Assembly: GCA_013288805.1 (NCBI GenBank)
Contig: JABDBE010000009.1
Location: 1-64,000, forward strand
Direction: 5' to 3'
Source of the DNA: Acidobacteriota bacterium
Lineage (GTDB): Bacteria; Acidobacteriota; Terriglobia; Terriglobales; Acidobacteriaceae
DNA: 64,000 bases
Position numbers and translations under genes: made by a program. Positions 4,191 through 63,593 of the stretch are shown in pieces. The notes under the pieces were generated by a model, which saw only the letters and a program-made list of their open reading frames with translations, searched no databases and was not told the DNA's origin. How positions within the stretch are numbered: position 1 is the stretch's first letter; every line of letters starts with the position of its first letter.

Positions 4191-4235
4191 AAGCTACGGT
4201 TTCCACGCCAGCGAGGTAACTGTCAGAAGTTACAG
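4191..4235 (-). promoter_or_regulatory. Class II-type promoter of arylsulfatase gene
   Basis: Minus strand: CTGTAACTTCTGACAG, 23 bases, TAGCTT. It ends about 73 bases before ATG 4117. Matches the shared signature exactly in spacing. Confidence 0.8.
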
Positions 4236-5124: not shown

Positions 5125-5169
5125 AGGCTATATCCGCGGATGAGGCGGGTGAACTGGCAAAACTTACAG
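5125..5169 (-). promoter_or_regulatory. Class II-type promoter of YXWXGXW gene
   Basis: Minus strand: CTGTAAGTTTTGCCAG, 23 bases, TAGCCT. Points left to ATG 5080. On the plus strand no TA box follows, so it is unlikely to serve the divergent gene. Confidence 0.78.
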
Positions 5170-5189
5170 TAACCCGCTCGAGGAATCGC

Positions 5190-6639: not shown

Positions 6640-6920
6640 TTGCGTCGCACCCGGTTTGGGGGTATAAGCGTCTTGTCTGCCGGACCCGGCTCGACTACCT
6701 AGGGCTGCAAGAAACACCCGACGCTGCAATGAGGTCATGAAATGCGAATTGCCTCGACTGCTTTTTGCCCGCCGCCCACGATGTATCCGCGAAAACCCGG
6801 GATCGTTTTGCTCGCCCAGGATTTGAAAATGCTGATTGACCGGCTGGCCCGCGTCGCCAAGACATTGCACCGGCATTAACGTTGCCCCGGGACTGGTCGT
6901 TCAGCGAATCTCGTTCCTGC
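6640..6920. other. Intergenic stretch without recognisable gene
   Basis: Between the DUF1232 promoter and the end of the DUF202 gene I see no convincing coding frame, hairpin or repeat. The open frame on the minus strand here has no recognisable motif and is probably fortuitous. Confidence 0.5.
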
Positions 6921-7343: not shown

Positions 7344-7771
7344 GAGACTTTCCTCAGGGTGGCGGGCGGCTGCCCATCGTGTTGACGGCGCATGATTATC
7401 AGCCGAGCCACTCGCATGGCCGGCCCGCGCAGCATTACGTAAGGTACGATCGCCAGAACGAAGGCGACGATTACCATCTCTCCGAAATATAGGGCTTGCA
7501 ACTCGATGAGCTGATACACGGCGTCCAGCACAAGCGCGAAAATGAACAGCTTGCCAATACGCTTCCACGCTTCCTTGACCATGTCCGCACGTTCAGGGGG
7601 ATTTGAGATCAGTTCCCAGAAGTATGGTGGTCTGCCGGCCTTGGCATCTGCGATGCCCGAGCGAATCGCGAAGAACGCCGCCGTGCACGGCTGGAGCACC
7701 AGTCTGAACTTCATGGGCCCGGTAACACGAGCCAGCAATTGAGTTCCGACGCGTTCCCACATGCCATCCAT
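7340..7771 (-). CDS. Conserved membrane protein, unknown
   Basis: A 143-residue protein starting MDGMWERVGTQLLARVTG with a strong ribosome site (GGAGGAGACC) before ATG 7771. An amphipathic N-terminal part (residues 1-50) is followed by two transmembrane helices (about 66-86 and 92-112) and a basic tail (RLIIMRRQHDGQ). I recognise the general look of this widespread short protein but cannot name a family. It sits between UPF0126 and DUF202 genes in the same operon. Confidence 0.8.
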   Translation of the reverse strand: MDGMWERVGTQLLARVTGPMKFRLVLQPCTAAFFAIRSGIADAKAGRPPYFWELISNPPERADMVKEAWKRIGKLFIFALVLDAVYQLIELQALYFGEMVIVAFVLAIVPYVMLRGPAMRVARLIIMRRQHDGQPPATLRKVS

Positions 7772-7841
7772 AAGGTCTCCTCCTTTTTTAACCAGGCGAC
7801 AGCGACGGATCAGTTCGAGTCGCCCAGTTTCCAGAAACCGT

Positions 7842-8555
7842 TCACCTGTGCGCGACCTTGCCGGCTGCGGGCGCGACAATGGGCACGACCTCCGAGTTTT
7901 CGTCAGGGCAGGGGATCGGCACAATTGACGGCCAGTGCTCCCGGACGGCTAAAATGCGGAAGACGAACGCAACCGCAACGGCTGTGAGCGTCACGGGAAA
8001 GAACGAGTCGCGCCCCTTTTCCCACACCGCGAGCAGCGTGTACACCGTGCTTGCCAACAGCGCTGCTGTAACGAGTTGCTCCGATGGCCTCACAATCTCC
8101 GGCGTGACTCCGGAGAAGAGGTCGATCAAAACCCCGCCGGCGGTGGTAGCGATCAGCCCCACCAGGATCGCCGTCCAGATCCCCAAATGATGATCGAGCG
8201 CCTTATGCGCGCCCAGGATCGCAAACCATGGCAATGAGAAAGACTTGAAAAACGCCAGCGTCCGCGTGCGGAATCGCTCCTCTCTGGTTGCGGAGTAGCG
8301 ATAGATCGCGAGCCCCAGCAAACCCATCAGGAGACACACGAGAAGATACTTAGGATCCTGGAGCGGCGCGGGGACGTCATTGAGCAAAATGTCGCGCGTC
8401 ACACCGCCGCCGATCCCGCCGAAGAAGGCCATGATCAGCAGTCCCATAACCGTATAGCCGCGATTGTGCGATGGCTGTCCCGCAAGGAGCACTCCGTACA
8501 GCGAGTTAATGCCGGCGGAGAACATGTCGACTTGTGGAAAGTTCGGTAAGGTCAT
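7842..8555 (-). CDS. UPF0126 (TRIC/YicG-type) membrane protein
   Basis: A 237-residue integral membrane protein with the UPF0126 motif FGGIGGGVTRDILLND (residues 45-60) and a second, more degenerate copy of the repeat (TTAGGVLIDLFSGVTPEI, about 138-155). Bacterial members include glycine-transporter-like and TRIC-like channel proteins; the cargo here is unknown. The hydrophilic C-terminus ends in VVPIVAPAAGKVAHR. It lies in an operon with DUF1622, an unknown protein and DUF202. Confidence 0.88.
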   Translation of the reverse strand: MTLPNFPQVDMFSAGINSLYGVLLAGQPSHNRGYTVMGLLIMAFFGGIGGGVTRDILLNDVPAPLQDPKYLLVCLLMGLLGLAIYRYSATREERFRTRTLAFFKSFSLPWFAILGAHKALDHHLGIWTAILVGLIATTAGGVLIDLFSGVTPEIVRPSEQLVTAALLASTVYTLLAVWEKGRDSFFPVTLTAVAVAFVFRILAVREHWPSIVPIPCPDENSEVVPIVAPAAGKVAHR

Positions 8556-9070: not shown

Positions 9071-9115
9071 AGGGTAAGGCGCAGGAATGGAGGCTACAAC
9101 TGTCACATCTGACAG
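9071..9115 (-). promoter_or_regulatory. Class II-type promoter of DUF1622 operon
   Basis: Minus strand: CTGTCAGATGTGACAG, 23 bases, TACCCT. Nearly perfect inverted repeat. Confidence 0.78.
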
Positions 9116-9141: not shown

Positions 9142-10134
9142 TCAGTCTGTGGCCGCCTGCCGTGAAATGCAGCGGAACCCGATGTGGTTCATACTCGTGT
9201 CGACCATCTGCGGCTGGCGTGCCGCCGGACGATAACGCAAACAGTAGTTGGGCGCGCACAGATGTGAGCCGCCCTTGACAACCTTGCGCGGAATCCGGAA
9301 CTGCGCCTGCGCTGCATCGAAGCTCTTGGCTGACGACAGAATCCGGGGATTCAGCGCCGGACCGCAACAAGGCTTAACCACCTCGTCCGCGTGGTGCGGG
9401 ACAAACCAATCGCTGGTCCATTCCCAAACGTTGCCCGCCATGTCACACAAACCATAGCCGTTCGGCGGAAAAGATCCGACCGGAGAGGTTCCTTCATAAC
9501 CATCTTCGAGCAGGTTTTGCCAGGGGAACTCTCCTTGCCAACTGTTGGCCATCGCTTTGCCGCCCGGCGAAGGGTCATTGCCCCAGGTAAACTTTTTTCC
9601 ATCGAGCCCGCCGCGAGCGGCAAACTCCCACTCCGCTTCGCTTGGCAGGTCTTTTCCTGCCCAGTGTGCGTAAGCTTCGGCGTCTTCATAGGCGACATGA
9701 ACCACGGGATGTTTTGCAAGGCCTTCGACCGAGGATTGTGGTCCCAGCGGATGGCGCCAACTCGTTCCCGGCACCCAAGCCCACCAGTTGAAGTAATCTC
9801 GTAAATCGACAGGGCCGGCACTTTTCTGAAAGAGCATGGAGCCGGGCACGAGATTCTCGGCAGGGGCACCTGGAAAATCCGCGGGATTCAGCGGGCGTTC
9901 ACAGAGCGTGATATAGCCGGTCGCCTCCACGAAGCGCGCGAACTGTTCGTTCGTAACCTCATAGCAATCCATCCAGAAGCCGTCCACGCTCACTTCATGA
10001 ACTGGCCGCTCCTCAGGATAAAAGTCTTCGGAACCCATGCGAAACGTTCCGCCGGGTATCCAAGCCATACCTGAGCGTTGTGGGTTGGCCGTCGCATCGG
10101 TTGTCTGCGGTTCAGCTGTTATTTGCGATTTCAT
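9142..10134 (-). CDS. Formylglycine-generating enzyme (FGE/SUMF1-type)
   Basis: Converts the sulfatase active-site Cys to formylglycine using oxygen. The FGE-sulfatase fold is visible throughout: IPGGTFRMGSEDFYPEERPV near the N-terminus, then LPSEAEWEFAARGG and GNVWEWTSDWF. The catalytic segment GGSHLCAPNYCLRYRPAAR carries both cysteines in the L-C-x4-C-x-R-Y-R arrangement of true FGEs, unlike many SUMF1-domain proteins that lack them. ATG 10134 is chosen over GTG 10161, because the palindrome at 10184-10199 would put transcription start near 10150. No signal peptide. A sulfatase and an anaerobic maturase lie within 8 kb. Confidence 0.92.
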   Translation of the reverse strand: MKSQITAEPQTTDATANPQRSGMAWIPGGTFRMGSEDFYPEERPVHEVSVDGFWMDCYEVTNEQFARFVEATGYITLCERPLNPADFPGAPAENLVPGSMLFQKSAGPVDLRDYFNWWAWVPGTSWRHPLGPQSSVEGLAKHPVVHVAYEDAEAYAHWAGKDLPSEAEWEFAARGGLDGKKFTWGNDPSPGGKAMANSWQGEFPWQNLLEDGYEGTSPVGSFPPNGYGLCDMAGNVWEWTSDWFVPHHADEVVKPCCGPALNPRILSSAKSFDAAQAQFRIPRKVVKGGSHLCAPNYCLRYRPAARQPQMVDTSMNHIGFRCISRQAATD

Positions 10135-10183
10135 TCTGTTTCCGTCGGATAAACAGTTCACTACGATTACGGCCGTTTAGCAC

Positions 10184-12927: not shown

Positions 12928-12972
12928 CTGTAACTTTTGACAGTTTCTGATGTGCCAAACCCTCGCTACTGT
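12928..12972 (+). promoter_or_regulatory. Class II-type promoter of 13004 operon
   Basis: CTGTAACTTTTGACAG, 23 bases, TACTGT. The predicted transcription start is about 25 bases before ATG 13004. Confidence 0.78.
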
Positions 12973-14377: not shown

Positions 14378-14422
14378 CTGTCACAATTGACAGTTGAAGA
14401 ATGCTTGATTGTCGGTGATGCT
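14378..14422 (+). promoter_or_regulatory. Palindromic promoter of 14539 unit
   Basis: CTGTCACAATTGACAG, a perfect inverted repeat, then 23 bases and GATGCT, a weak -10. About 115 bases before ATG 14539. Confidence 0.65.
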
Positions 14423-15929: not shown

Positions 15930-16013
15930 TACCAAATCATAAGGGTGCTCGGCGTTGAACGCGACGCGGAATTATTTAAGTACGCAGTCAGAAACCACGT
16001 GGTGGCCATTTAG
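15930..16013 (+). pseudogene. C-terminal remnant of NarL-type response regulator
   Basis: This frame, ending TAG at 16011-16013, encodes VLGVERDAELFKYAVRNHVV. It matches the C-terminus of the intact regulator at 27201-27845 (VLGVKSNAELVKYAVRNHVI). No receiver domain or start precedes it, so it is a decayed or recombined paralogue. The rest of 15716-16179 shows no gene. Confidence 0.75.
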
Positions 16014-21664: not shown

Positions 21665-21709
21665 CTGTCATTATTGACAGTGGGCAGGGCAGAAAAACTT
21701 CCCTAGCAT
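21665..21709 (+). promoter_or_regulatory. Class II-type promoter of OmpA paralogue 2
   Basis: CTGTCATTATTGACAG, 23 bases, TAGCAT. One of the best copies; near-identical layout to 39352-39396 before paralogue 3. Confidence 0.85.
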
Positions 21710-23270: not shown

Positions 23271-26200
23271 TTGGTCTGTTTATTGCGCAAAATTCGCGAC
23301 GACGTAATCCCAAACTCTGGAACCTCCCGGTGCGCGCTGATTTGTGTCCTGTGTTTCGCGATAATGCCCGCGAGCGCATCGGCGAATGCCAAAGCCGGGC
23401 TGTTGCCAGCGCGACAGCAAATTGACGTCCTCTTTCTTTCCTCGTTAGATCCGGACCTGCCCGATGTCACCGCCATGGTGGAACAGGCCGAGGCCCACAT
23501 TCTTGGTGGTTCCACAAGACCGGTCCACTTTACCTTTGAATACCTTGAGTCTCCTTCATCGTTCTCGGACCCGTCCCGGAAACAGGCAACGGCTTCCTAC
23601 CTCCTCGAAAAGTACGGGGGGCAGACCTTCGATCTGGTGGTTGCCATCAACGAGGAAACGGTAGGTCTTGCGGAACAGATTCGACAAAAACTGTTCCCGG
23701 GTGCGGCCCTCTTGTTCTTCGTGGCGGATCCGAAAGATCCTTCAATCTGGCTGAAGCCCCATGCGGCAAGAACGGGCGTCGTCCGGCAGACGAATTCCTC
23801 ACTTACCCTTCAGTTGGCGTTGCGGCAGAACCCGGGCGCTTCCCACGTGATTGTGGTTTCCGGTTCGTCCGACGCCGAAAAATCCGAGATGGAGTTAGCG
23901 CGCCAGCAATTCCTCGCCTATGGATCGAATCTGGACTTTCAATATTTGGTCGATCTCCCGTTCTCAGAATTGGGGCCACGGCTGGCGCATGTCCCGCCCG
24001 ACAGCGTCATCGTGTTCCTCGATTTCATAACAGACTCCCGCGGTGAGCAATTTATTCCGGCGCGCATTCTCCCCGACATTGCCAAGGAAGCGAATCGACC
24101 GATCTACGGAACGTTCTCCTCCGTCGTAGGCAGTGGGGTAGTGGGAGGCAGCGTCGCTGTTCTGGGCGAAGTGGGGCAAATCCTGGGCAATGATGGGGTG
24201 CGGATTCTGAAGGGAGCTAAGCCAGAGGATATCGCGGTTGCAAACGGCGACTTCCAGCACTACGTAGTCGATTGGCGTCAGCTGCGCCGCTGGGGAATTC
24301 CGGACAATCAGATTCCGAAAGGAACCGAAGTCCGCTATTGGCAATACTCTCCCTGGGAGCTTTACCGCCGGAGGATCCTCGGCCTTTTGGCAGCCCTGCT
24401 TATCGAAACACTGCTGATCGTTTTGTTGCTTCGTAATGTGGCCACGCGTAAGTCGGCTCAAGTTGCTCTGATCCGAAAAGAGAAAGAACTCGCAGAAGCA
24501 CAGCGGCTGGCACGAGTCGGCAACTGGCTGTGGGATCCTGCGAGTAACGAGGTTACCTGGTCGGAGGAGCTTTACCGCATCCTCGGAATTGATCCCGGAT
24601 TGCCGAAACCCGGCATCAATGAAATCGAGCGGTTCTTCAGTCCGGAAAGTATAAGCCGGTTCAATGCTGCGATCAAAGAAGCTAAGACGACTGGCTCAAT
24701 TCCAGAGATCGAGGTGGAGGTCATACGTCCGGACGGCAGCAAAAGATGTGTCAGCGCTTGCGGTGAAGCAATACGCGATGCCAGCGGCCGTATTACTCAT
24801 TTTCGCGGCACGGCTCAAGACATCACCGGTCGTAAGAAGTTCGAAGCTGAACTGCGTGACAGCCAGCGGCGCCTGGCAAGTATTGTTGATTCTGCGATGG
24901 ACGGAATTATCGCAGTCGATGACAAACAAGTGGTCTTGTTGTTCAACCCAGCCGCCGAGAAGATTTTCGGTTGCGCCGCGCCCGATGCCATTGGGAGTTC
25001 GATCGAGCGTTTTATCCCGCAGCGTTTCCGAGTCGAACACGGCGCGCATCTTCGCCGCTTCGGGGAGACTGGCGCCACCAGCCGGACTATGGGCACTCCC
25101 GGTGCACTCTGGGCCTTGCGCTCAAACGGCGATGAATTTCCTATTGAGGCCTCAATCTCACACGCTGAGGACGCGGGCAAGAAACTGTTCACGGTAATCA
25201 TCAGGGACGTCACCGAGCGTCGCAACGCGGAAGAAGCTGTGGCGGAAAGCGAGAAACGCTTTCGTTTGATTGCGAATACCGCTCCTGTGCTGATCTGGAT
25301 GGCCGGTTCAGACAAGACGTGCAACTATTTCAATGAGTCCTGGCTGGCATTCACCGGCCGGAGTCTGGAAAAGGAGCTCGGCAATGGCTGGGCTGAGGGG
25401 GTACATCCAGAAGACTTGCAGACGTACCTGGATACATATGCTCGAGGGTTTGATAGCCACAAGGAATTCAGGATGGAGTACAGGCTTCGCCGCCACGATG
25501 GAGAGTACCGCTGGGTTCTCAACATATGTGCACCCAGGTTCAATGGCGATGGTTCCTTTGCCGGATACGTGGGCTGCTGCATTGATATAAGCGATCAGAA
25601 GGAGGCAAAAGCCGTCCTTACCGACCTAAGTAGCCGGCTGATACATGCGCAAGAGGAGGAGCGAGAGCACCTGGCGCGCGAGTTGCACGACGACATCAAT
25701 CAAAGGCTGGCGTTGTTGGCCAACAGAATTCAGGAATCTGATCAGGCTGCGTCGGCGCATACCGATTTGTTGCAGAAGAAGGAACTGCGGGAGATTTGGC
25801 GACTGACCAATGAGATTGCGACTGACATTCAACACATTTCTCATCAGTTGCATCCCTCCAAGCTGCATTATCTCGGATTCGCCGCAACCGTTCGTGACCT
25901 CTGCAGGGAAGTTGCTCATCAGCACAAGATTCAGGTCGAGTGTACGGTTAAGGATCTGCCTGTGGACCTCGATGAAAACATATCCCTCAATTTGTTCCGG
26001 ACGGTGCAAGAATCATTGCGAAATGTAGTTAAACACAGCCAAGCCCATTACGTGAAAGTGGCATTGAATTGCCAAGGAAATATGCTTCAGTTGCGCGTTT
26101 CCGATGATGGAGTTGGATTCAATTCCGAGCAGGTATCGGGTGCTCACGGTCTCGGACTGGTAAGCATGCGGGAGCGTATGCGTTCCGTGGGCGGCGAGCT

Positions 26201-26357
26201 TTCTATCTGGTCAAGGCCATTCCTGGGTACCCAGGTGGAAGGGCGGGTTCCGGTTCCCAAGAACGCCGCGAACAAGGTAGACGATCCCGCGAGTGACCGA
26301 AGGCTTCAGGGTCAACGGTCGTCGACAGTCAATTTTGACAGTGGTCGAACCTACTGA
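23271..26357 (+). CDS. Sensor histidine kinase with ABC-substrate-binding-like sensor and three PAS domains
   Basis: 1028 residues in the longest form (TTG 23271; the start is uncertain). Order: signal peptide (about 18-40), ABC substrate-binding-like periplasmic domain (50-350), one transmembrane helix (369-388), PAS domains at about 410-525, 535-655 and 660-780, HisKA_3 dimerisation domain with phospho-His806 (ARELHDDINQRLALLA), and HATPase with QESLRNVVKHS and DDGVGFN/GLGLVSMRER. HisKA_3 kinases usually pair with NarL-type regulators, and one lies 0.8 kb downstream. The third PAS and kinase core closely match the kinase at 27855-29828. No palindromic promoter precedes it. Confidence 0.93.
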   Translation: MVCLLRKIRDDVIPNSGTSRCALICVLCFAIMPASASANAKAGLLPARQQIDVLFLSSLDPDLPDVTAMVEQAEAHILGGSTRPVHFTFEYLESPSSFSDPSRKQATASYLLEKYGGQTFDLVVAINEETVGLAEQIRQKLFPGAALLFFVADPKDPSIWLKPHAARTGVVRQTNSSLTLQLALRQNPGASHVIVVSGSSDAEKSEMELARQQFLAYGSNLDFQYLVDLPFSELGPRLAHVPPDSVIVFLDFITDSRGEQFIPARILPDIAKEANRPIYGTFSSVVGSGVVGGSVAVLGEVGQILGNDGVRILKGAKPEDIAVANGDFQHYVVDWRQLRRWGIPDNQIPKGTEVRYWQYSPWELYRRRILGLLAALLIETLLIVLLLRNVATRKSAQVALIRKEKELAEAQRLARVGNWLWDPASNEVTWSEELYRILGIDPGLPKPGINEIERFFSPESISRFNAAIKEAKTTGSIPEIEVEVIRPDGSKRCVSACGEAIRDASGRITHFRGTAQDITGRKKFEAELRDSQRRLASIVDSAMDGIIAVDDKQVVLLFNPAAEKIFGCAAPDAIGSSIERFIPQRFRVEHGAHLRRFGETGATSRTMGTPGALWALRSNGDEFPIEASISHAEDAGKKLFTVIIRDVTERRNAEEAVAESEKRFRLIANTAPVLIWMAGSDKTCNYFNESWLAFTGRSLEKELGNGWAEGVHPEDLQTYLDTYARGFDSHKEFRMEYRLRRHDGEYRWVLNICAPRFNGDGSFAGYVGCCIDISDQKEAKAVLTDLSSRLIHAQEEEREHLARELHDDINQRLALLANRIQESDQAASAHTDLLQKKELREIWRLTNEIATDIQHISHQLHPSKLHYLGFAATVRDLCREVAHQHKIQVECTVKDLPVDLDENISLNLFRTVQESLRNVVKHSQAHYVKVALNCQGNMLQLRVSDDGVGFNSEQVSGAHGLGLVSMRERMRSVGGELSIWSRPFLGTQVEGRVPVPKNAANKVDDPASDRRLQGQRSSTVNFDSGRTY

Positions 26358-26370: not shown

Positions 26371-26478
26371 CTGTGAAGGTTGCTCTCCGGATCCGCACCC
26401 TCTGGCAACCCTGCTGGCGTCAACGTGGGTTGGCCGGGTACGAATTTCGCGGCCGCCACTTTTCGAAGGGAGGGCCTT

Positions 26479-26898
26479 GTGCCGAGAACAACTGTAGTCC
26501 TGGCCGACGACAACTGTTCCGTCCTTGCTCATGTCGGCCATATGCTCGAAAGAGATAATATTTACCAGGTTGTCGCTGCAATATCGGACCCGACAGCTAT
26601 CGTCCGAGAATGCCTACAGCTCAGACCCAATATCATCGTCCTGGACATCTCGATGGGGGAACTGAGCGGGATTGATGTCGCGCGACAACTGCGAGATTCG
26701 GGGAGCACGGCCAAGATCGTCTTTCTCACCGTGCATGATGATACCGATTATATGAACGCCGCAATCGGCGCCGGCGGCTCGGCATACGTGGTGAAATCAC
26801 GCCTGAGCCTGGACCTGTTTTCCGCCATCAATGCAGTGCTTGCCGGCAAGGTATTTGTGTCGGCCAGCTTGTTGAATGAACCTAGCACACAGGTGTGA
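26479..26898 (+). CDS. Receiver-only response regulator
   Basis: 139 residues from GTG 26479, which has GGGAGGG seven bases upstream; longer forms read into the promoter. A complete receiver domain: VLADDN acidic pair, IIVLDIS with the phospho-acceptor Asp, FLTVHDDTDY, and YVVKSR with the conserved Lys. No output domain. It sits between a HisKA_3 kinase and a NarL-type regulator and probably shares or competes for phosphoryl groups. Confidence 0.87.
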   Translation: MPRTTVVLADDNCSVLAHVGHMLERDNIYQVVAAISDPTAIVRECLQLRPNIIVLDISMGELSGIDVARQLRDSGSTAKIVFLTVHDDTDYMNAAIGAGGSAYVVKSRLSLDLFSAINAVLAGKVFVSASLLNEPSTQV

Positions 26899-26932: not shown

Positions 26933-26977
26933 CTGTCACTAATGACAGTTGTGCCGTCGTTTTGCTGCTCTTAGTCT
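26933..26977 (+). promoter_or_regulatory. Class II-type promoter of NarL-type regulator
   Basis: CTGTCACTAATGACAG, 23 bases, TAGTCT. About 220 bases before ATG 27201, leaving a long leader in which I see no gene. Confidence 0.8.
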
Positions 26978-27200
26978 CAACAGCAAAATCACGTGGGCAG
27001 CTCGGAACTCTGGCCGTGCGCAGTAAGCAGGAGTGGGTTGAAGTCGTCTTTAAAGGCCGCCCGTTCCGCCTCAGCTCCAGAGCCGCGCTAGAATTCGCCA
27101 GCGATTGAATCTTGACGGAAGTGGGATGTGGGAGTAGTGTTAGGAACCACACGGAACTACACCCCGCAACCACCTAAATTTCCAGCTTGAGGGTAGGGCA

Positions 27201-27845
27201 ATGATTAACCGTTCCCGCATCTTAATCGCCGACGACCATACTCTTGTGGCCGAGTTGTGCAAGCGACTTCTCGAAGCCGAATTTAACGTAATCGGAGTGG
27301 TCAGTGACGGCCGCGCCTTGGTGCGCTCGGCCCGAGAATCGAAGCCAGACGTGGTCGTGCTCGATATCGCCATGCCGGTTCTGAATGGTCTGGACGCAGG
27401 GCGGCAATTGAAACTACTGCTGCCAGCCGTCAAGTTGGTGTATCTGACGATGAATCCTGACGTGGAGGTAGCTGCGGAAGCGTTCCGCCTCGGTGCCTCG
27501 GGATACCTTCTCAAGACTTGTGCCGCGGCTGACATCGTGCTCGCGGTTCGCGACGTGTTGCGGGGTAAATCGTATATGTCTAAGGCTCTGCCTTACGAGA
27601 CGATCAATTTCCTCCGACGGCAAGACAAACAACTGATTCAGGAAGACGAGCGTCTCACCGAAAGGCAGCGAGAAGTGCTGCAATTGCTGGCCGAGGGAAA
27701 GGTAATGAAGGAAGTCGCCGATATCCTTAATATGACGACCCGCACAGTTGCCTATCACAAGTATCGAATGATGGAGGTACTTGGCGTTAAAAGCAACGCG
27801 GAATTGGTCAAGTACGCGGTCAGGAACCACGTGATAGCCGCGTAA
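27201..27845 (+). CDS. NarL/LuxR-type response regulator
   Basis: 214 residues. Receiver domain 5-120 with acidic pair DD11-12, phospho-acceptor Asp55 (VVVLDIAMPV) and Lys105 (YLLKT). A LuxR/GerE helix-turn-helix follows at about 148-210 (LTERQREVLQLLAEGKVMKE, TVAYHKYRMMEVLGVKS). ATG 27201 follows GAGGGTAGGGCA. It is the only regulator in the window with a DNA-binding domain and is itself preceded by the shared palindrome. It converges with the kinase at 27855 (nine bases between stops). Confidence 0.95.
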   Translation: MINRSRILIADDHTLVAELCKRLLEAEFNVIGVVSDGRALVRSARESKPDVVVLDIAMPVLNGLDAGRQLKLLLPAVKLVYLTMNPDVEVAAEAFRLGASGYLLKTCAAADIVLAVRDVLRGKSYMSKALPYETINFLRRQDKQLIQEDERLTERQREVLQLLAEGKVMKEVADILNMTTRTVAYHKYRMMEVLGVKSNAELVKYAVRNHVIAA

Positions 27846-27854
27846 GCTGTTCTG

Positions 27855-29828
27855 CTATCCGACCGCGCGGATCGAATCGCTTCCCGGACTAAGCGGCACG
27901 CTAACGTGGACCGCAGTACCTTTTTCGGGTTGCGTCACGATGGCGAGAGTTCCGTTCAACAATTTCAGACGTTCCTCCATGCTGACGAGCCCGAGTCCCG
28001 GGCCCTGCTTCGCCGCTTCGCGATCGAAGCCAACACCTGGATCGCTAACGGTCAGGCGAATCTCCTCCGAAGTTCCCCACAATCGCACCTCGAAATGCCG
28101 TGCGCCACTGTGTTTCACCGAATTGTGCAGGGCCTCTTGCAAGACTCGGAACAGGCAAAGAGAAATGTCGGGCGACAAATGATCGGCCAAGTCGTGAGTT
28201 TTGAAGTCAACTCCCACTTTTTGCTGCTGGGCGAATTCCCGGCAGAAACCCCTCATAGCTGCAGCAATCCCCAGATACTGCAGTTTTGCCGAATGTAACT
28301 CGTGCGACAAGGATTGGATATCCGTGGCTATCTCCGAAGTCTGCTTGTGAAGTTCGCCGATTCGGTAGCGGATCCGGGGCAAATTGGGAGGGTCCTGATG
28401 CAGTTGTTCCAGCTCGACGGCCAATAGTGCGAGACGCTGACCGATATCGTCGTGAAGATCTCTGCCGATCCGTGTACGTTCTTTCTCTTGCGCTTCGAGC
28501 AACCTTCGGTTGACGTTTGTGAGCGCTTCTTCCGCCCGCTTGCGCTCGGTCATGTCGATCCCGATCCCGATGTAACCGATAAAGGAGCGATCCTGATCGA
28601 AGCGCGGCACGCCAATGTCGACCACCCAGCGATATTCTCCATCGTACCGTCGAAGCCGATACTCCATCCTGAATTCCTCACGAACATCGAAGCTCCGGCT
28701 ATAGGTGTCCATGCATCTTTGCAAATCCTCAGAGTGAACTCCTTCCGTCCAACCGTTACCAAGTTCGGAGTCTATGGATCGGCCAGTGAAGTCAAGCCAG
28801 GGCTTATTGAAATAGGTGCAAAGCTTATCGGGGCCCGCCATCCAGATCAGCGCAGGTGCAGTATCGGCCATTAATCGGAAGCGTTTTTCGCTTTCGCGGA
28901 AGGCGCGTTCAGTCCTTTTTTGTTCTTCCATCAGAACAGCAAGAAGCATGAAAGTTGCTGCGGTGAAAAATAAGAAGAGCTGCAGGGACATCACATTAGT
29001 GAGCGGCTCGGATGTGGTAAAGGGGCCGCGACCGTGGACCGCGCCCCAAATCGACAGCAGAGCGACCAGGACCATCGAGGTACTGATTCCCGCCAAACCA
29101 AAACGCAACGCGGACCATAGCAGAATTGGAAGAAGGGAATACAGTAGAACCGGCGAACTGATTTGCTTTGGAGCCGCGAAAGCCACGTAACCCAAAATGC
29201 TCAACCCGGCGATCAAAGCGGTGGCTTCCAGGTAAAAGGCGCGTGACTTCCGGGACCATGTCAGCCCTATACTGGCCCAGCTCAAAATGGCCGGCGTTAC
29301 AGTGAGGAGGGCCAGCGCCTCTGTAAAGAAACCAATCCTCCAACGGATCCAGTAGTCCCCGCTGAAAGCGGCCGTGGCGATAAATGCTGCCGCCAGTGGG
29401 GCGAGGAGAACCGCAAACAGTGAATACCGTGTGAGAGACCTTACGCTATTCAACCGGACTGGACCGCTGAAGAAGTAACTCACTCCGAAAGCTGCGATCA
29501 GAACTTCGACTGTGTCGGAAACAATCAATATAACTGTTGGACGAAGCGTCAAGCCGGCTTGTGCATCGTAGAGAACAAATCCTGCCAGGCCTGCGGCGAG
29601 CACAATCGACCACAGTCTGTGCGGCGTTAACAGCAAAACCGCAACCAGAAGTGCGCAGCCAGGCCAAAGTGCCCAGAGCATCTGAGGCCGAAGCACAAGT
29701 AAACCGCCTAGCCGCGCAGTGAGATAGGACAGGGAAGCGACGAGGCAAGCCAGGATCGCGGAGTGCAATAGGGAATCAAGATTCGTTTTGCCCCACGGCA
29801 GGCGACCCCGAATGAAACTCATACACAC
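27855..29828 (-). CDS. Sensor histidine kinase, MASE1-like membrane sensor with PAS
   Basis: 657 residues. N-terminal eight-helix MASE1-like membrane sensor (about 20-300), PAS domain (312-430), HisKA_3 with phospho-His459 (IGRDLHDDIGQRLALLA), and HATPase with LQEALHNSVKHSG and DPGVGFD/GLGLVSMEERL. The PAS and kinase core are close to those of 23271-26357, so the two kinases differ mainly in sensor. No palindromic promoter of the shared type was found upstream. Confidence 0.93.
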   Translation of the reverse strand: MCMSFIRGRLPWGKTNLDSLLHSAILACLVASLSYLTARLGGLLVLRPQMLWALWPGCALLVAVLLLTPHRLWSIVLAAGLAGFVLYDAQAGLTLRPTVILIVSDTVEVLIAAFGVSYFFSGPVRLNSVRSLTRYSLFAVLLAPLAAAFIATAAFSGDYWIRWRIGFFTEALALLTVTPAILSWASIGLTWSRKSRAFYLEATALIAGLSILGYVAFAAPKQISSPVLLYSLLPILLWSALRFGLAGISTSMVLVALLSIWGAVHGRGPFTTSEPLTNVMSLQLFLFFTAATFMLLAVLMEEQKRTERAFRESEKRFRLMADTAPALIWMAGPDKLCTYFNKPWLDFTGRSIDSELGNGWTEGVHSEDLQRCMDTYSRSFDVREEFRMEYRLRRYDGEYRWVVDIGVPRFDQDRSFIGYIGIGIDMTERKRAEEALTNVNRRLLEAQEKERTRIGRDLHDDIGQRLALLAVELEQLHQDPPNLPRIRYRIGELHKQTSEIATDIQSLSHELHSAKLQYLGIAAAMRGFCREFAQQQKVGVDFKTHDLADHLSPDISLCLFRVLQEALHNSVKHSGARHFEVRLWGTSEEIRLTVSDPGVGFDREAAKQGPGLGLVSMEERLKLLNGTLAIVTQPEKGTAVHVSVPLSPGSDSIRAVG

Positions 29829-31776: not shown

Positions 31777-31821
31777 CTGTCAGTTTTGCCAGTACTCACA
31801 CAGTCAAGAGTTCCTTACGAT
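31777..31821 (+). promoter_or_regulatory. Class II-type promoter of D15-like barrel gene
   Basis: CTGTCAGTTTTGCCAG, 23 bases, TACGAT. The predicted start is about 105 bases before GTG 31933. Confidence 0.75.
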
Positions 31822-34384: not shown

Positions 34385-36145
34385 CTAGTGTGCCGACGCC
34401 GGGTCGTCAGGAAGCTTGCTCTTTTCCGCCGCGAGCGTCACGACTTCTTTCTGTCCGAGCCAATTGCTGTCTGCCAGGACTTTAGCCTCCGGTGCATCAC
34501 CCGGAAAATATTGGGTTGAGCGCACATCCTTAGGTAGCAGCACTATGTCGACGCGGCGGTTGTAGGCCCAACCGAGCGCTTGTGGACCGACATTCGGGAG
34601 CTTGTTTGGGTTTTGATCGTGCAATGACGCGACTGTGCTTGCGTCTAGCTGCTTCGTGTCTCCATATGCCTCGGTCTCGATCTTGCTGTCCGGAATCCCT
34701 TGCGACACAAGGTATTGCTTGACCAGATTTGCGCGTCGTTCGCTGAGGGGTTTGTTCCTGGCATTCGAATCGCGCTCGTCAGCATTGCCCGCGACCGTGA
34801 GGTGCGCATCCGGGTTGTATTCCAGATACTTCTTGAATCCCTCTGCAGTGCGATCCAGCGACTGCTTCTGACTCTGAACCAAACCCTCCTCAGGATGGCG
34901 TGCCTCAGGGTAGCCGGTAGGAAAAAATACGCTCACCAGCGGAACGTCGGGTATCGGCTCGATCGAACCGGTCACATGGATTGACGCGGTGTGAGTATCC
35001 GTGCCGCCGCAATCGTTCTTGGCAGTGAGAGTGAACGTCTTAACCTCGTCGACCGGGCCGTTGGTTTCCTGCTTAGGCGTAGCGGCAACAGATTGCGTAC
35101 CGTTGGTGGCTACCGATCCCAAGGGATCAATACTGACCGAGCTGGCGTTGGTCGCCGTCCAACCCAAATTTGCAGAGCCCTGCTCGATCACCTTGTCGCC
35201 GATTCGGCGGTAGTGAAGTTGAGCTGGGGATGCATCGATCGAGCTCTGGATCGTTGAATTGACATCGACCGGCGCGGATGAGGTTACGCTTCCGCCGGGA
35301 CCAGACGCTACAAGATGGTAGGTAGTTGCGTTCTTCGGTTGTACCGAAAGGTTTCCGCTCGGATCAACTTGTTTCAAAGTTTCCGAGTCGGCGGTAATGG
35401 TTCGCTGCACAGTTTCAGACGTCTGCCAGGAGACGCTGGTTGAGTCTCCGCAATTGATCTTTGCAGGCGAAGCACTGATATTTCCGCTGACCGGAGGGAT
35501 TGCGATGGTTGCGCTGGCCACACCGGCTTTGAATCGAGCAAGGGAATCAATGGTCGCGCCTCCGTGCCAGGGTTTGGTTTTCTGCTTGCCGCTCGGTACG
35601 TACAAAATAACCCGCTGATCGGCGGGAACGTTGACCGAACCGGACCATAACTCTTGCGAGCCTTGATTCACTACCGTGACTTCGTGAGTTCCGGCAGGAA
35701 CAATCAGTTCCTGCGTGCAACAGGCGAATAGGGCACCCGAATTGTCGAATTCGTCTCCATGCCCGACAAAATACTCTGGCGCCTTGCCATTCAGGTAGAT
35801 GGCAGCGCGTGGAGCACCCTCAATCTGAATACGTCCCCAAGGACCCGAAACCGGACCGGAAACAGCGGCTAATTCAAAGGTCAGGTCCGCATTTTTCCCT
35901 GCGGTAAGCGAAACCTGGCGGGTCTCAGGCTTATAACCATAGTTATAGACGCTGATGGTGTGATCGCCAGGCGGGACCTTAATAGTTCGACTGCTGTCGC
36001 CGAACGGCGTCCCATCCACAAAGATGTAGGCCTGATGAGGCTTCACAACGACTCGTACCTTCGCGTTCTGGCCAAATGATCCGGTTGCCGCGAATAGAAG
36101 AAGCGCGGCCATTGTCAGAAAGTAACGATATCCTTTGTAGCGCAT
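34385..36145 (-). CDS. PEGA-domain OmpA-family protein
   Basis: 586 residues: signal peptide 1-25 (ATGSFGQ), PEGA domain (about 28-95, VDGTPFGDSSRTIKVPPGDH), a second PEGA-like stretch (about 100-195), Ig-like region (220-395), and C-terminal OmpA-like domain (about 405-545: NADERDSNARNKPLSERRAN, then AYNRRVDIVLLPKD). The peptidoglycan-binding Asp/Arg signature is intact. It is probably a periplasmic scaffold linking surface glycans or lipids to peptidoglycan. ATG 36145 follows AGGAGGACAAACAC. Confidence 0.9.
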   Translation of the reverse strand: MRYKGYRYFLTMAALLLFAATGSFGQNAKVRVVVKPHQAYIFVDGTPFGDSSRTIKVPPGDHTISVYNYGYKPETRQVSLTAGKNADLTFELAAVSGPVSGPWGRIQIEGAPRAAIYLNGKAPEYFVGHGDEFDNSGALFACCTQELIVPAGTHEVTVVNQGSQELWSGSVNVPADQRVILYVPSGKQKTKPWHGGATIDSLARFKAGVASATIAIPPVSGNISASPAKINCGDSTSVSWQTSETVQRTITADSETLKQVDPSGNLSVQPKNATTYHLVASGPGGSVTSSAPVDVNSTIQSSIDASPAQLHYRRIGDKVIEQGSANLGWTATNASSVSIDPLGSVATNGTQSVAATPKQETNGPVDEVKTFTLTAKNDCGGTDTHTASIHVTGSIEPIPDVPLVSVFFPTGYPEARHPEEGLVQSQKQSLDRTAEGFKKYLEYNPDAHLTVAGNADERDSNARNKPLSERRANLVKQYLVSQGIPDSKIETEAYGDTKQLDASTVASLHDQNPNKLPNVGPQALGWAYNRRVDIVLLPKDVRSTQYFPGDAPEAKVLADSNWLGQKEVVTLAAEKSKLPDDPASAH

Positions 36146-36211: not shown

Positions 36212-36256
36212 ATGGTATGGGGGCGCTTCTGGTCTGAGAACTGTCAAAGATGACAG
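36212..36256 (-). promoter_or_regulatory. Class II-type promoter of PEGA-OmpA gene
   Basis: Minus strand: CTGTCATCTTTGACAG, 23 bases, TACCAT. Divergent from the site at 36322. Confidence 0.78.
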
Positions 36257-39351: not shown

Positions 39352-39396
39352 CTGTCAGTATTGACAGTGGGCATGGCAAGGAAAGGTGCTTAGCAT
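39352..39396 (+). promoter_or_regulatory. Class II-type promoter of OmpA paralogue 3
   Basis: CTGTCAGTATTGACAG, 23 bases, TAGCAT. Shares extended flanking bases (CAGTGGGCA) with the paralogue 2 promoter. Confidence 0.85.
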
Positions 39397-40416: not shown

Positions 40417-40606
40417 ACAACTCGTTGCCATAAGGCTTCGATGCGGGCCGTCAAGGGCAGTACTCGTCCGACTCCCACAGGCTCGGGGTTGTGCTGAACG
40501 GCTCGAGCACCGCGATGGGCAATTATTTCATGCGCCCTGTCGTTTCGATGCTCGGTTCAAAGCATAGCCTCGAGTTTGGCGATTGCGCCAATAAAGGGTG
40601 TCCAAA

Positions 40607-41497
40607 ATGAACGCGGTTTCCTCGATCGAATTGCGTCCCTTCCCGGTTCGGACGGCACTGGTTGTAGGTGGTGACTCAGAAATTGAGAGAGAGTTGCGGG
40701 ACATTCTCGACCCTGATGCCTGGGCAATCCAGCGGGTCCCGAACAATGCGACGGCGCTCCTCACGGCACAGAAGAAAGGCTTCGATCTGATCTTGACCAG
40801 CGAGAAGACCTCAGGGAGGGAGGACATCGAATTGCTTCGCAAGATCCGGCGTATCCGTCCTCATACCCGCTTGATCATTTTGGCCGACGAAAGCACTCCT
40901 GGGGACGTAATCACATCGATGCGCGAACATGCTTTTAGTTATTTTTCCAAGGGATATTCCCCCGACGCCTTGGCCGTTATGATTCGGCACGCAATGGAGG
41001 AGCCCTGCTGGGACGACGGTATCGACGTACTCTCGGCAACTCCGGAATGGATTCGTATCCTGGCTCGATGCGACCTTAAGACGGCGGATCGCGTACTGCA
41101 GTTCTTCGATGAGATCGCGGAGTTGCCGACCCTGGAGAGAACCGCCGTGGGTATGGCTTTTCGGGAAATGCTGGTCAACGCGATTGAGCACGGCGGGCGG
41201 CTTGATCCCAACCAGCAAGTCGAAATTTCTTATATACGCGCTCGCCACATGGTCAGTTGCCGCATCAGCGATCCGGGTGAAGGATTTACGTTGGACGAGA
41301 TTCCCCATGCGGCCATTGCCAATCCATCAGACGATCCGGTGAGGCACGTCGAGTTTCGCAACGCGCAGGGCATGCGCCCAGGTGGGTTCGGGGTTCTGCT
41401 CGCGCAAAAGCTCGTCGATCAGCTTGTCTACAGCGAGCAAGGCAATGAAGTCGTGCTCATCAAATATCTCGACCTGGAGCCGCGGCAGGCGGAATGA
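40607..41497 (+). CDS. Degenerate receiver fused to anti-sigma-type ATPase
   Basis: 296 residues from ATG 40607 (AAAGGGTG upstream). Residues 10-130 follow a receiver fold (TALVVGGDSEIERELRDILD, LIILADEST, FSYFSKGYS), but the phospho-acceptor Asp position reads DLILTSEK, so phosphorylation is unlikely. Residues about 150-290 form a HATPase_c_2 domain of the RsbW/SpoIIAB type (FREMLVNAIEHGGRLDP, ISDPGEGFTLDEI, PGGFGVLLAQKLVDQLVYSE). It may be a serine kinase/anti-sigma-type switch protein. The last codons overlap the next gene (ATGA). Confidence 0.85.
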   Translation: MNAVSSIELRPFPVRTALVVGGDSEIERELRDILDPDAWAIQRVPNNATALLTAQKKGFDLILTSEKTSGREDIELLRKIRRIRPHTRLIILADESTPGDVITSMREHAFSYFSKGYSPDALAVMIRHAMEEPCWDDGIDVLSATPEWIRILARCDLKTADRVLQFFDEIAELPTLERTAVGMAFREMLVNAIEHGGRLDPNQQVEISYIRARHMVSCRISDPGEGFTLDEIPHAAIANPSDDPVRHVEFRNAQGMRPGGFGVLLAQKLVDQLVYSEQGNEVVLIKYLDLEPRQAE

Positions 41498-42999: not shown

Positions 43000-43044
43000 A
43001 GACTAGTTGCCGTTGTATCGTCTTCCAACTGCCAGTTCTGACAG
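43000..43044 (-). promoter_or_regulatory. Class II-type promoter of DUF2490 gene
   Basis: Minus strand: CTGTCAGAACTGGCAG, 23 bases, TAGTCT. On the plus strand TTAATT follows at 23 bases, so it might also serve the divergent gene at 43170. Confidence 0.78.
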
Positions 43045-44270: not shown

Positions 44271-44315
44271 TTGTCAAAACTGACAGTTGCTGGGCGCGGG
44301 TCCTTGACCGAGCAT
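44271..44315 (+). promoter_or_regulatory. Palindromic promoter of first DUF3300 operon
   Basis: TTGTCAAAACTGACAG, 23 bases, GAGCAT (a TAGTAC lies five bases further). About 64 bases before ATG 44379. Confidence 0.7.
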
Positions 44316-44378
44316 AGTACCCGGGCAATTGCTCCAGCCACACTCGAAAATGTGGTTTGTCCGGGCGGGAGAAAACGC

Positions 44379-45863
44379 ATGATTACGAATTTGGTGAAAC
44401 AGGTTCTGTGCGCGACGTTATGGGTGCCGCTGATCCTTATTACGCCGTTTGAAGTGGGAGCTCAGCAATCGGCGCCCCCTGCGTCCGCCGGTTACTCTGG
44501 ACAAGGCGCGCCGCTATCCCCGGACGAATTGCAGCAACTGGTTGCGCCGATCGCGCTATACCCTGACGCTTTGGTCGCACAGGTTCTGGCAGCCGCGACC
44601 TTCCCCGATCAAGTTGCTTTCGCCGCCAGTTGGCTGCAGCAGAACGGTAATCTCACGGGAACGAATCTCATGCAGGCGGTCGACGCACAGCAGTGGGATC
44701 CAAGCGTGAAGGCCCTTACACAATTCCCGTCGGTGCTCGGCAATTTGGCGCAGAACCTCAGTTGGACCTCCGCATTAGGGGAGGCGTATCACACACAGGC
44801 CGGGGACGTCATGGCGGCGGTCCAGGTTTTGCGGGCCAAGGCGTTGGCTGCCGGAAACCTCAAGTCAGGATCACAACTCACGGTCGTGCAACAGTCGCCG
44901 CAAGTCATCGTGATTCAATCTGCGAATCCGCAGGTCGTGTATGTCCCTATGTACAACCCCGCGGTGGTTTACGGCTACCCGTATGTAACTCCTGGATACA
45001 GTGCCGCGACTGTGGCCGCCACCGGCATCCTTGCGTTTGGAGCCGGAATCGCTGTGGGCGCGATGATGAGCGGGGGATGTTGCGGGTGGGGATATAGCAG
45101 TTGGAACTGTGGTTGGCACGGCACTACGACGGTGGTGTATCGCGGTGGTGCGTACTACGGAAATGCTGCGTGGCACGGTGGCTACTATGGCTCCGGTGTG
45201 GCGCGCTACGGCACCAGCTACAACCCGTCTACCGGGACCTATGCCCGAGGCGGAACAGTCTCCAACGGATACGGGAGCGCGAGCGCTGGTAAAGCATACA
45301 ACCCCTCCACCGGAACCTATGCCCGCGGAGCGTCAACCTCCAACGCTTACGGCACGCAGAGCGCTGCCCAAGCTTACAACCCAAGGACCGGGGCATACGG
45401 CCAGACTCAGCAAGGTTCCAATGCCAATGGAAGTTGGGGGAGCTCGACGGTCTCGAAGAATGGCAACACGGCGTACAGCCAGCATCAAACGACGTCTCAA
45501 GGAACGACTGGGTCGATACAAACCTCGAACGGAGGCTCCGCCTACGGCGCGTCGGGTAAGTACAACAGCGGTGCGGTTGGTCAGACCGCAAACGGCAACA
45601 AATACGCGTCCGCGAACGGCACCCAATACAAGAATACGGGCAGCGGCTGGCAGAGCGATAAGGGTGGAAGCTGGAACAACGTGCAGAAACCTACCAGCTC
45701 GCCGAGCGGCTGGGGACAACAGGAGAGAAGCGGCGGATCGTCGGCTTTCGGCGGTGGCGGCGGAGGGTGGGAAAACAAGACCGCTAGCGCTCGTGGTTCG
45801 GAGAGCCTGGGCGGTGGTGGTGGCTGGGGCGGCCGCTCCGGCGGCGGTGGTTTTCGGAGATGA
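44379..45863 (+). CDS. DUF3300 protein with repeat-rich Gly tail
   Basis: 494 residues: signal peptide (ITPFEVGAQQ), DUF3300 domain (about 45-210: LVAPIALYPDALVAQVLAAA, PQVVYVPMYNPAVVYGYPY), then a transmembrane-like GILAFGAGIAVGAMMSGGCC. Three imperfect repeats of YNPSTGTYARG type follow, and the C-terminus is very Gly/Ser-rich. Function of DUF3300 is unknown; it is commonly paired with DUF2950, as here. ATG 44379 follows GGGCGGGAGAAAACGC. A second DUF3300-DUF2950 pair occurs at 57436. Confidence 0.9.
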   Translation: MITNLVKQVLCATLWVPLILITPFEVGAQQSAPPASAGYSGQGAPLSPDELQQLVAPIALYPDALVAQVLAAATFPDQVAFAASWLQQNGNLTGTNLMQAVDAQQWDPSVKALTQFPSVLGNLAQNLSWTSALGEAYHTQAGDVMAAVQVLRAKALAAGNLKSGSQLTVVQQSPQVIVIQSANPQVVYVPMYNPAVVYGYPYVTPGYSAATVAATGILAFGAGIAVGAMMSGGCCGWGYSSWNCGWHGTTTVVYRGGAYYGNAAWHGGYYGSGVARYGTSYNPSTGTYARGGTVSNGYGSASAGKAYNPSTGTYARGASTSNAYGTQSAAQAYNPRTGAYGQTQQGSNANGSWGSSTVSKNGNTAYSQHQTTSQGTTGSIQTSNGGSAYGASGKYNSGAVGQTANGNKYASANGTQYKNTGSGWQSDKGGSWNNVQKPTSSPSGWGQQERSGGSSAFGGGGGGWENKTASARGSESLGGGGGWGGRSGGGGFRR

Positions 45864-45938
45864 GCCCGGGCCGGTCCCGAGCGCGACGAAACTCGGCGCT
45901 GGTGAGGTGCTTCACATTCGATGTTCTGGAGGATGAGT

Positions 45939-46874
45939 ATGTCACGCGACATCGGGAGAATTGCAAACTGGGTACTTACTTTGGGGCTAATCGTTCTCCT
46001 TGCCGGCTGCAACAAGTCCGATACGCCTTCGTTGAAAACGTTTGCTTCCCCTGAGGACGCGGGCAACGCCCTGCTGGAGGCGGGAAAGGCGGGAGATCAA
46101 AACGCGCTTCTGGCAATTTTTGGTCCGGAATCGAAGGACCTTATCTCTTCCGGGGACGCCGTGCAAGACAAGGCCACCGTCGCTGCATTCATAGCGGGGT
46201 ATGCGCAAATGCACCGCTGGCGCAAGATGCCCGATGCCAGCCAGATCCTACTGGTTGGAGCCGACAATTTTGCCTTCCCGATTCCGCTGAGGAAAAATGA
46301 CGGCGGGCAGTGGTTCTTCGACACGGGTGCGGGAAGAGATGAAATCCTGGCGCGACGAATTGGCCGAAATGAACTGGCAGCCATCAATGTTTGTGGAGCG
46401 CTCGCCGACGCCCAAGCCAAATACTTCGTCGAGCGTGGCGACCTTGGGGGCACCAAGCAATATGCCTTGAAATTCATCAGCGATAATGGTCAGCAGAACG
46501 GCTTATATTGGGCAGCGCCAGACGATCAGCCTCAAAGCCCACTCGGTCCGCTGGTAGCGTTTGCGACTGATGAGGGGTATAGCGCAAAGCCAAATTCTCA
46601 CATGCCTTTCCACGGCTACTTCTTTCATATGCTGACTAAGCAGGGCAGTCACGCCAATGGCGGCGCCAAGGACTACGTGGTCGACGGGAAGATGACCGGT
46701 GGATTCGCATTCGTGGCGTATCCAGCGCAATACCGTAATTCTGGAGTGATGACATTCATCATCGATCAGGATGACGTGCTGCTACAGAAGGACTTGGGAA
46801 AGACCACGGCGGAAACAGCCACTGCCATGACTGAGTTCGATCCCGATGACAGTTGGAGTGTGGTACAGGAGTGA
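45939..46874 (+). CDS. DUF2950 lipoprotein
   Basis: 311 residues from ATG 45939 (GGAGGATGAGT upstream). A lipobox LAGCNKS marks a lipoprotein. DUF2950 features: FASPEDAGNALLEAGKAGDQ, FIAGYAQMHRW, WFFDTGAGRDEILARRIGRN, YFFHMLTKQG, and GGFAFVAYPAQYRNSGVMTF near the C-terminus. Paralogue at 58761-59714 lacks the lipobox Cys. It lies directly after DUF3300. Confidence 0.9.
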   Translation: MSRDIGRIANWVLTLGLIVLLAGCNKSDTPSLKTFASPEDAGNALLEAGKAGDQNALLAIFGPESKDLISSGDAVQDKATVAAFIAGYAQMHRWRKMPDASQILLVGADNFAFPIPLRKNDGGQWFFDTGAGRDEILARRIGRNELAAINVCGALADAQAKYFVERGDLGGTKQYALKFISDNGQQNGLYWAAPDDQPQSPLGPLVAFATDEGYSAKPNSHMPFHGYFFHMLTKQGSHANGGAKDYVVDGKMTGGFAFVAYPAQYRNSGVMTFIIDQDDVLLQKDLGKTTAETATAMTEFDPDDSWSVVQE

Positions 46875-47806: not shown

Positions 47807-47851
47807 CTGGCATTATTGACAGTCGTCCAATCCTCCTCTGCCCGATAGCGT
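47807..47851 (+). promoter_or_regulatory. Class II-type promoter of 47953 gene
   Basis: CTGGCATTATTGACAG, 23 bases, TAGCGT. The predicted start is about 95 bases before ATG 47953. Confidence 0.78.
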
Positions 47852-63577: not shown

Positions 63578-63593
63578 CTGTCACTTTTGACAG
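63578..63593. promoter_or_regulatory. Palindromic site of unknown direction
   Basis: CTGTCACTTTTGACAG, near-perfect. At 23 bases to the right lies TGTAAT, to the left TGAACT. It could serve a second start for the 63890 gene or a leftward transcript. Confidence 0.5.

Follow-up and report, generated by a model that had tools for sequence, protein, structure and literature searches.

A NarL/FixJ-type response regulator as the probable reader of a clustered palindrome in an acidobacterial genome

The stretch of acidobacterial DNA analyzed here (64,000 nucleotides, hereafter the window) carries repeated copies of the palindrome CTGTCA-N4-TGACAG, and the question raised by this locus is which protein reads them. 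The original prediction regarded a CRP/FNR-type protein as the better fit and placed a NarL-type regulator, encoded from position 27201, second. Judging from sequence comparisons, we propose that the palindrome is very probably bound by a phosphorylated dimer of the 27201 protein, which would activate a nearby regulon consisting largely of envelope proteins.

Palindrome copies and promoter geometry

In the window, CTGTCA-N4-TGACAG, taken as the operator, occurs in seven exact copies and in 21 copies when at most one mismatch is allowed. With up to three mismatches, 53 matches were obtained versus 24.8 (sd 4.7) in shuffled sequences, none of the 100 shuffles containing as many. The genome assembly from which the window derives (3.53 Mb in 203 contigs, 54% complete) has eight exact copies, all of them on the window's own contig (C9, 72,279 bp), and the reversed-pattern control has none. 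Similarly, 29 copies with at most one mismatch were found in this genome, of which C9 holds 22 and another contig, C26, holds three, compared with two for the control. The palindrome is no chance repeat.

On C26, a second, smaller cluster (C26:14001-34000, locus L012) consists of one-mismatch sites which likewise have TAnnnT 23 nt away and precede two ORFs, one for an IS110-type transposase and the other for a DUF892 (YciF-like) protein. The strong local clustering of the palindromes, together with the C26 copy preceding a transposase ORF, would be consistent with non-regulatory repeats which a mobile element has dispersed. However, 25 of the 31 window sites with at most two mismatches are intergenic, though listed genes cover 76% of the window, and their spacer varies. 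Furthermore, once the flanks are oriented, little is conserved beyond the box, the T which follows it and the TAnnnT element at its 23-nt distance. When 97 sites from other genomes were oriented in this way, their consensus (CTGTCA-ntt.-TGACAG-TT) likewise showed little conservation further out. The probability left to a mobile repeat is virtually negligible. The sites and the promoter element considered in the window are the following:

4220..4235, minus strand: one-mismatch palindrome, TAGCTT at 23 nt, 103 nt ahead of sulfatase ORF 1742-4117
9100..9115, minus strand: exact palindrome, TACCCT at 23 nt (minus strand), no listed ORF start within 420 nt
12928..12943, plus strand: one-mismatch palindrome, TACTGT at 23 nt, 61 nt ahead of ORF 13004
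14378..14393, plus strand: exact palindrome, 146 nt ahead of ORF 14539, no TAnnnT at 22-25 nt
21665..21680, plus strand: exact palindrome, TAGCAT at 23 nt, 62 nt ahead of OmpA-family ORF 21742
26326..26341, plus strand: one-mismatch palindrome inside the end of ORF 23271, TAGCAT at 23 nt, 39 nt ahead of the REC-only gene 26380
26933..26948, plus strand: exact palindrome CTGTCACTAATGACAG upstream of 27201 (pattern match)
26972..26977, plus strand: -10-like TAGTCT, 23 nt past the palindrome; predicted 27201 promoter, leader of ~220 nt
31777..31792, plus strand: one-mismatch palindrome, TACGAT at 23 nt, 141 nt ahead of an Omp85-family ORF
36241..36256, minus strand: exact palindrome, TACCAT at 23 nt (minus strand), 96 nt ahead of PEGA-OmpA ORF 34385-36145
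39352..39367, plus strand: exact palindrome, TAGCAT at 23 nt, 69 nt ahead of OmpA-family ORF 39436
43029..43044, minus strand: one-mismatch palindrome between the divergent ORFs 42996 (TAGTCT at 23 nt) and 43170 (DUF481)
47807..47822, plus strand: one-mismatch palindrome, TAGCGT at 23 nt, 41 nt ahead of ORF 47863
63578..63593, no strand assigned: exact palindrome overlapping a listed sulfatase ORF start, no TAnnnT at 22-25 nt

A -10-like element stands at a fixed distance from the palindrome. Of the 50 flanks of palindromes (at most one mismatch) in the window's own genome, 17 have TAnnnT at 23 nt, the background being on average 0.39 TAnnnT per spacing (spacings 0-49, outside 21-24). In other genomes, it was found at this distance in 48 of 196 flanks, with a background mean of 1.5 and a largest value of 6 outside 21-24 (two flanks were counted per site and identical flanks were merged). 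The element is present at five of the seven exact window sites. The promoter of perfect spacing which had been predicted at 26933-26977 was recovered, CTGTCACTAATGACAG at 26933-26948 being followed, after 23 nt, by TAGTCT at 26972-26977, and the two sites singled out for binding assays, at 21665 and 39352, indeed match the palindrome exactly, are followed by TAGCAT at the same distance and precede OmpA-family ORFs. If the first T of TAnnnT is read as position -12, the palindrome center falls at about -43.5. Within the leader, between the 26933 promoter and 27201, a short open frame (27016-27108; GTG, 30 codons, TGA) may be a leader peptide or may have arisen by chance.

The ORFs directly behind window sites include members of the OmpA family (18924 on the minus strand, 21742 and 39436 on the plus strand), one PEGA-OmpA ORF, Omp85-family, small beta-barrel, sulfatase and DUF481 ORFs, and several without known family, while a DUF892 ORF lies behind a C26 site. 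One site lacking TAnnnT at 22-25 nt lies between two divergent ORFs, one sulfatase-modifying and the other kinase-TPR, and two further ORFs, a DUF3300 ORF and a second sulfatase ORF, have listed starts which overlap sites. Loci of other genomes which encode relatives of the 27201 regulator repeatedly contain DUF4136, sortase, BON, VWA and ion-channel ORFs. Because of the families of the ORFs behind the sites, the regulon may have a role in envelope stress or surface remodelling. Contig C9 also carries three sulfatase ORFs and a sulfatase-modifying-factor ORF (1742-4117 and 9142-10161; 3572-5449 and 6704-8164 of locus L011).

The 27201 protein and its genomic neighbors

The gene proposed to encode the palindrome reader is surrounded by other signaling genes and has a truncated relative upstream:

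27201..27845, plus strand: proposed palindrome reader, NarL/FixJ-type response regulator, 214 aa, ATG start, REC + GerE
26380..26898, plus strand: stand-alone receiver without helix-turn-helix, adjoining the regulator (Pfam)
23271..26357, plus strand: PAS-rich HisKA_3 histidine kinase, candidate partner (Pfam)
27855..29828, minus strand: MASE1-PAS-HisKA_3 histidine kinase, convergent neighbor, candidate cognate kinase (Pfam)
15930..16013, plus strand: C-terminal end of a sister-regulator relic (alignment to the 27201 protein)

The 27201 protein matches Pfam Response_reg at residues 7-116 (2.6e-24, 85.9 bits) and GerE at residues 151-206 (3.5e-16; 59 bits for a cut-off of 23.5). The acceptor Asp, the acidic pair, the Thr and the Lys of a receiver domain are all found in this protein, D11, D12, D55, T83 and K105 being invariant across 16 of 16 aligned response regulator sequences (27201 included). 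Its C-terminal GerE (LuxR_C-like) helix-turn-helix assigns it to the NarL/FixJ group, and the REC + GerE architecture is shared with NarL from E. coli and with VraR, DevR, DesR and RcsB. By sequence, VraR, NarL and DevR are its nearest full-length solved relatives, while among the 25 matches listed no NCBIfam equivalog cut-off was reached (the best being MctR, with 143.7 of 300 bits). Mechanistically, 27201 is an ordinary NarL/FixJ regulator.

Two HisKA_3 kinases (23271-26357 and 27855-29828) are encoded near 27201 and are candidate partners. The homology group of the 27855-29828 kinase is represented in 26 genomes, the window's own included, among the loci which were clustered; these were chosen for a relative of the regulator, whose frequency there is set by this selection. 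In the same clustered loci, the homology groups of DUF2950 and DUF3300 are present in nine and eight genomes, respectively (own included), and the DUF3300-DUF2950 gene pair occurs twice in the window (44271-46874 and 57436-59714).

Among the Pfam-scanned ORFs of C9, a scan which covered small and overlapping ORFs in part, 27201 alone has a DNA-binding helix-turn-helix, in line with the earlier statement that it is the sole DNA-binding regulator here. The other REC proteins of this contig (26380, 20651 and 48971) and the REC-HATPase protein 40598 have no helix-turn-helix according to Pfam. The latter (40598-41497), a receiver fused to an RsbW-like HATPase_c_2 domain, is a possible partner-switching link on the same contig. 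The relic of a sister regulator previously noticed at 15930-16013 is real: a frame ending in ...DLDYQIIRVLGVERDAELFKYAVRNHVVAI and a stop aligns to the C-terminus of 27201, with 16 of the last 22 residues identical, as counted by eye.

A mechanism can be proposed on this basis. A neighboring HisKA_3 kinase would phosphorylate 27201, which would then dimerize. The phosphorylated dimer would bind CTGTCA-N4-TGACAG through its GerE helix-turn-helix and, located at about -43.5 in place of a -35 hexamer, would recruit RNA polymerase to the TAnnnT -10 element, activating rather than repressing transcription. Some twenty C9 genes would thus be switched on, among them outer-membrane, OmpA-family, sulfatase and DUF481 genes, as well as 27201 itself and the stand-alone receiver 26380.

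Candidate readers of the palindrome

The co-occurrence of the palindrome with relatives of the regulator was assessed across 398 genomes of the same family, relatives being called at E<=1e-52. An exact palindrome is present in 31 of the 49 genomes with a relative versus 41 of the 349 without (Fisher 2e-14; 7.6e-14 when the window's own genome is removed), and 107 of the 155 exact sites fall in these 49 genomes. Fifteen of the 16 genomes with at least three exact sites encode a relative. Conversely, 18 of the 49 genomes have no exact site, and in G254, which has three exact sites, no relative was detected.

Proximity points in the same direction. A relative of the regulator lies within 5, 10 and 20 kb of 11, 18 and 20, respectively, of the 41 exact sites listed in 11 other genomes, whereas an HTH_Crp_2 gene lies within these distances of two, four and eight of the same sites. 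The matches listed for this count comprise 23 relatives of the regulator versus 85 HTH_Crp_2 genes, i.e. about four times as many, and the count covers the 18 site-bearing genomes except G121, G198, G313, G380, G400 and G406. The other 21 of the 41 sites are more than 20 kb from a detected relative or on another contig.

These data bear directly on the possibility that a CRP/FNR-family protein reads the palindrome. Such proteins commonly bind palindromes near -41.5, and both the palindromic site and the class II-like layout are similar to those observed here. HTH_Crp_2 genes are also found near exact sites in G278 (contig C165; site 6599, CRP gene 7799-8452) and G145 (contig C3; site 420206, CRP gene 421302), and near sites or on contigs encoding a relative of the regulator in six further instances (G193:C129, G147:C1, G121:C7, G053:C34, G400:C12 and G406:C195). 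Yet the eight HTH_Crp_2 matches of the window's own genome, which is 54% complete, include none on C9 or C26. Similarly, one palindrome-neighboring CRP clade (E<=1e-40) was detected in eight of the 398 family genomes, seven of them encoding a relative of the regulator, and in four of the 16 site-rich genomes versus 15 of 16 for the regulator; CRP genes were searched for in the own genome and 17 others, and this single clade across the 398. In addition, T-C occupies the half-site positions at which CRP and FNR sites carry their G-A core, which counts against this family. The CRP-type genes beside sites may merely accompany them or be controlled through them, and are less likely to read them. 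On locality, co-occurrence and proximity, a CRP/FNR protein was dropped as leading reader and such a reading is very unlikely. The original ranking is therefore reversed: 27201 becomes the leading candidate rather than the second one, owing to co-occurrence, proximity and the helix split described below, while the better fit attributed to CRP/FNR was not supported, none being encoded on C9 or C26 and four of the 41 sites listed having a CRP-type gene within 10 kb, versus 18 for the regulator.

Sites also adjoin the regulator genes themselves. Among 123 distinct genes encoding relatives of 27201, a site with at most one mismatch was found within 400 bp upstream of 14 and within 300 bp downstream of 24, versus means of 0.15 and 0.10, respectively, for permuted palindromes (partial matches were removed, one of each near-identical pair was kept and repeated loci were merged; one of the match listings comprised the best 80 of 564). 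Adjacent sites occur in records labelled Lysobacterales, Planctomycetota, Chromatiales and Gammaproteobacteria and in other classes of Acidobacteriota; taxon labels outside Acidobacteria come mostly from metagenome bins and may be wrong. The ORFs beyond ten adjacent sites differ, encoding YceI, beta-barrel, carbonic anhydrase, SpoIIE-PAS and choloylglycine-hydrolase-like proteins, kinases and, in three instances, proteins without family. The locus of Granulicella sp. L46 (L108) has four exact sites. Upstream autoregulation as a conserved rule was rejected: a site with at most two mismatches precedes three of the 19 genes at 60% identity or more, a set which includes the 27201 gene, and nine of the 23 genes at 50-60% identity. 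Adjacency on either side of the regulator is the better description.

When 6-4-6 inverted repeats followed by TAnnnT at 22-24 nt were collected from 36 stretches around relatives of the regulator (L016 and L036 being neighborhood only), CTGTCA was the top half-site (37), ahead of CTGGCA (14) and CTGTTA (8). Some loci depart from this pattern. In G149, which encodes the closest relative (83%), a 5.4-kb contig has only two 2-mismatch sites, and in G032 (66%) the 30 kb around the regulators hold only 2-mismatch sites, the single exact site being far off. Three loci with exact sites and no regulator detected (L092-L094) have neither TAnnnT at 22-24 nt nor a neighboring site with at most one mismatch, and these sites look as expected for chance copies; several exact sites in genomes encoding the regulator are also without TAnnnT.

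Another GerE-type regulator could read the sites, with 27201 being a mere neighbor or target. The genome being 54% complete, such a reader could be missing from the assembly, or it could be encoded on C26, which has three one-mismatch sites. Two GerE matches are located on this contig, a regulator (L012:4150-5220) with 25% identity in an alignment of the helix-turn-helix and a short frame (C26:22486-22644); their distances to the nearest site are ~1.1 kb and 4.6 kb. Against this, members of the 27201 clade, the one followed across genomes, are found next to palindromes repeatedly, in many genera as well as in records from other phyla, and of the 25 GerE matches in the own genome, 27201 is the only one on C9. 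A reader of this kind seems most improbable, and 27201 is retained as the proposed reader. Some genomes have several paralogues of the 27201 clade, and more than one clade member may read sites.

Related operators, the recognition helix and the spread of the pair

The operator resembles targets of other GerE-type proteins. The target of NarL, like the one proposed for 27201, is a 16-bp inverted repeat, although that of NarL has a 7-2-7 arrangement; at E. coli ogt, NarL activates from such a repeat centered at -44.5 (PMC7419079), compared with about -43.5 predicted for the 27201 sites. AfeR, a quorum-sensing regulator from Acidithiobacillus ferrooxidans, is a LuxR-type protein with a GerE helix-turn-helix. 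Its 18-mer afe box, GCTGTCAA-NN-TTGACAGC, contains CTGTCA-N4-TGACAG (PMC3759942). Similarly, the cep box CTGTAAAAGTTACCAGTT, read by CepR in Burkholderia cenocepacia, has CTG-N10-CAG and a trailing TT, as here (PMC1766932).

These likenesses raise the possibility that a LuxR-type acyl-homoserine-lactone receptor reads the palindrome, which would then be a lux box. The palindrome core is the afe-box core and resembles the cep box, and lux boxes overlap the -35 region (PMC1766932, PMC3759942), as the palindrome does in its predicted position; a lux-box-like operator overlapping -35 is common to both readings and thus not diagnostic. The receptor itself is hardly represented: of 18 genomes with palindromes, 14, the own genome among them, have no Autoind_bind (PF03472) match, and the others have weak partial matches (E 1e-5 to 1e-4) in G026, G198, G313 and G406, that of G026 being on another contig than its sites. 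Such a receptor is extremely improbable as reader. Likewise, 27201 was rejected as a LuxR-type quorum-sensing regulator, as it has Response_reg instead of Autoind_bind; unlike LuxR-type readers, the proposed reader has a phospho-receiver and no acyl-homoserine-lactone domain. We infer that the lux-box likeness is a property of the shared GerE fold.

The 27201 protein differs from NarL in its proposed half-site (CTGTCA) and in its recognition helix, TVAYHKYR versus TVKVHVKH, and position 184 aligns with the Lys of the NarL TVKVH helix, which we take to be Lys188, a DNA-contacting residue. Among loci fetched by protein similarity alone (genome_contigs loci), a subset free of site-based locus choice, a site lies within 5 kb in 41 of 55 loci with Ala184 and in none of the 26 with Glu184. 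Over all loci, merged and filtered as for the adjacency count, the same distance gives 59 of 91 for Ala184, a count inflated because some loci were fetched for nearby sites, and 0 of 35 for Glu184. The split persists below 56% identity (39 of 54 versus 0 of 35) and in records labelled outside Acidobacteria (14 of 17 versus 0 of 15). Within the Ala184 group, proteins which also have Gly181 have sites in two of 13 loci, and those without Gly181 in 57 of 78. In a tree built without the helix columns, the Ala/Glu split amounts to two changes, with two independent pairs, too few to give an independent-pairs test any power, so that kinship and residue effect are inseparable, and Fisher values ignore kinship.

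A different operator was also searched for at loci with a KPG-type helix (P/T-G before TVAFHKY), and none was found: ten such loci (L019, L020, L061-L065 and L067-L069) have no exact or one-mismatch palindrome, and among 6-4-6 repeats with TAnnnT in 13 stretches around regulators of this type no half-site comparable to CTGTCA emerged.

Tentatively, and with somewhat less than even expectation that this broader view will hold, the 27201 clade and its lux-box-like operator could form one inherited or transferred unit present in Acidobacteriota and in further phyla, represented by records which carry the labels Nitrospira, Planctomycetota, Lysobacterales and other Proteobacteria. A phospho-receiver protein would have adopted the operator code that LuxR proteins use in quorum sensing, or would have arrived at it independently; Ala or Glu at the position of NarL Lys188 would mark the split in operator use; and some hosts would carry dense islands with about twenty operators around the regulator's own gene. 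The operator, the unusual degree to which the regulon is local and the wide occurrence of regulator and operator together appear new, since no description of this pair, of the operator sequence or of TVAFHKY was found in the open-access literature, subscription papers being mostly outside this search.

If correct, these predictions provide an operator and a regulon for a response regulator subfamily which 49 of the 398 genomes examined from one acidobacterial family encode and which also occurs outside that family. To our knowledge, few regulons have been mapped in Acidobacteria, a soil phylum. They also offer a helix-to-operator rule for GerE domains, based on position 184, and a proposed case in which a two-component regulator reads a lux-box-like operator. 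Of the two candidate readers, the 27201 response regulator ranks first for purification. A further arrangement was observed in an Acidobacteria bin (L131), where tandem palindromes, in pairs 16-18 nt apart (7030-7061 and 7912-7945), lie beside a relative of the regulator and are possible double-dimer operators.
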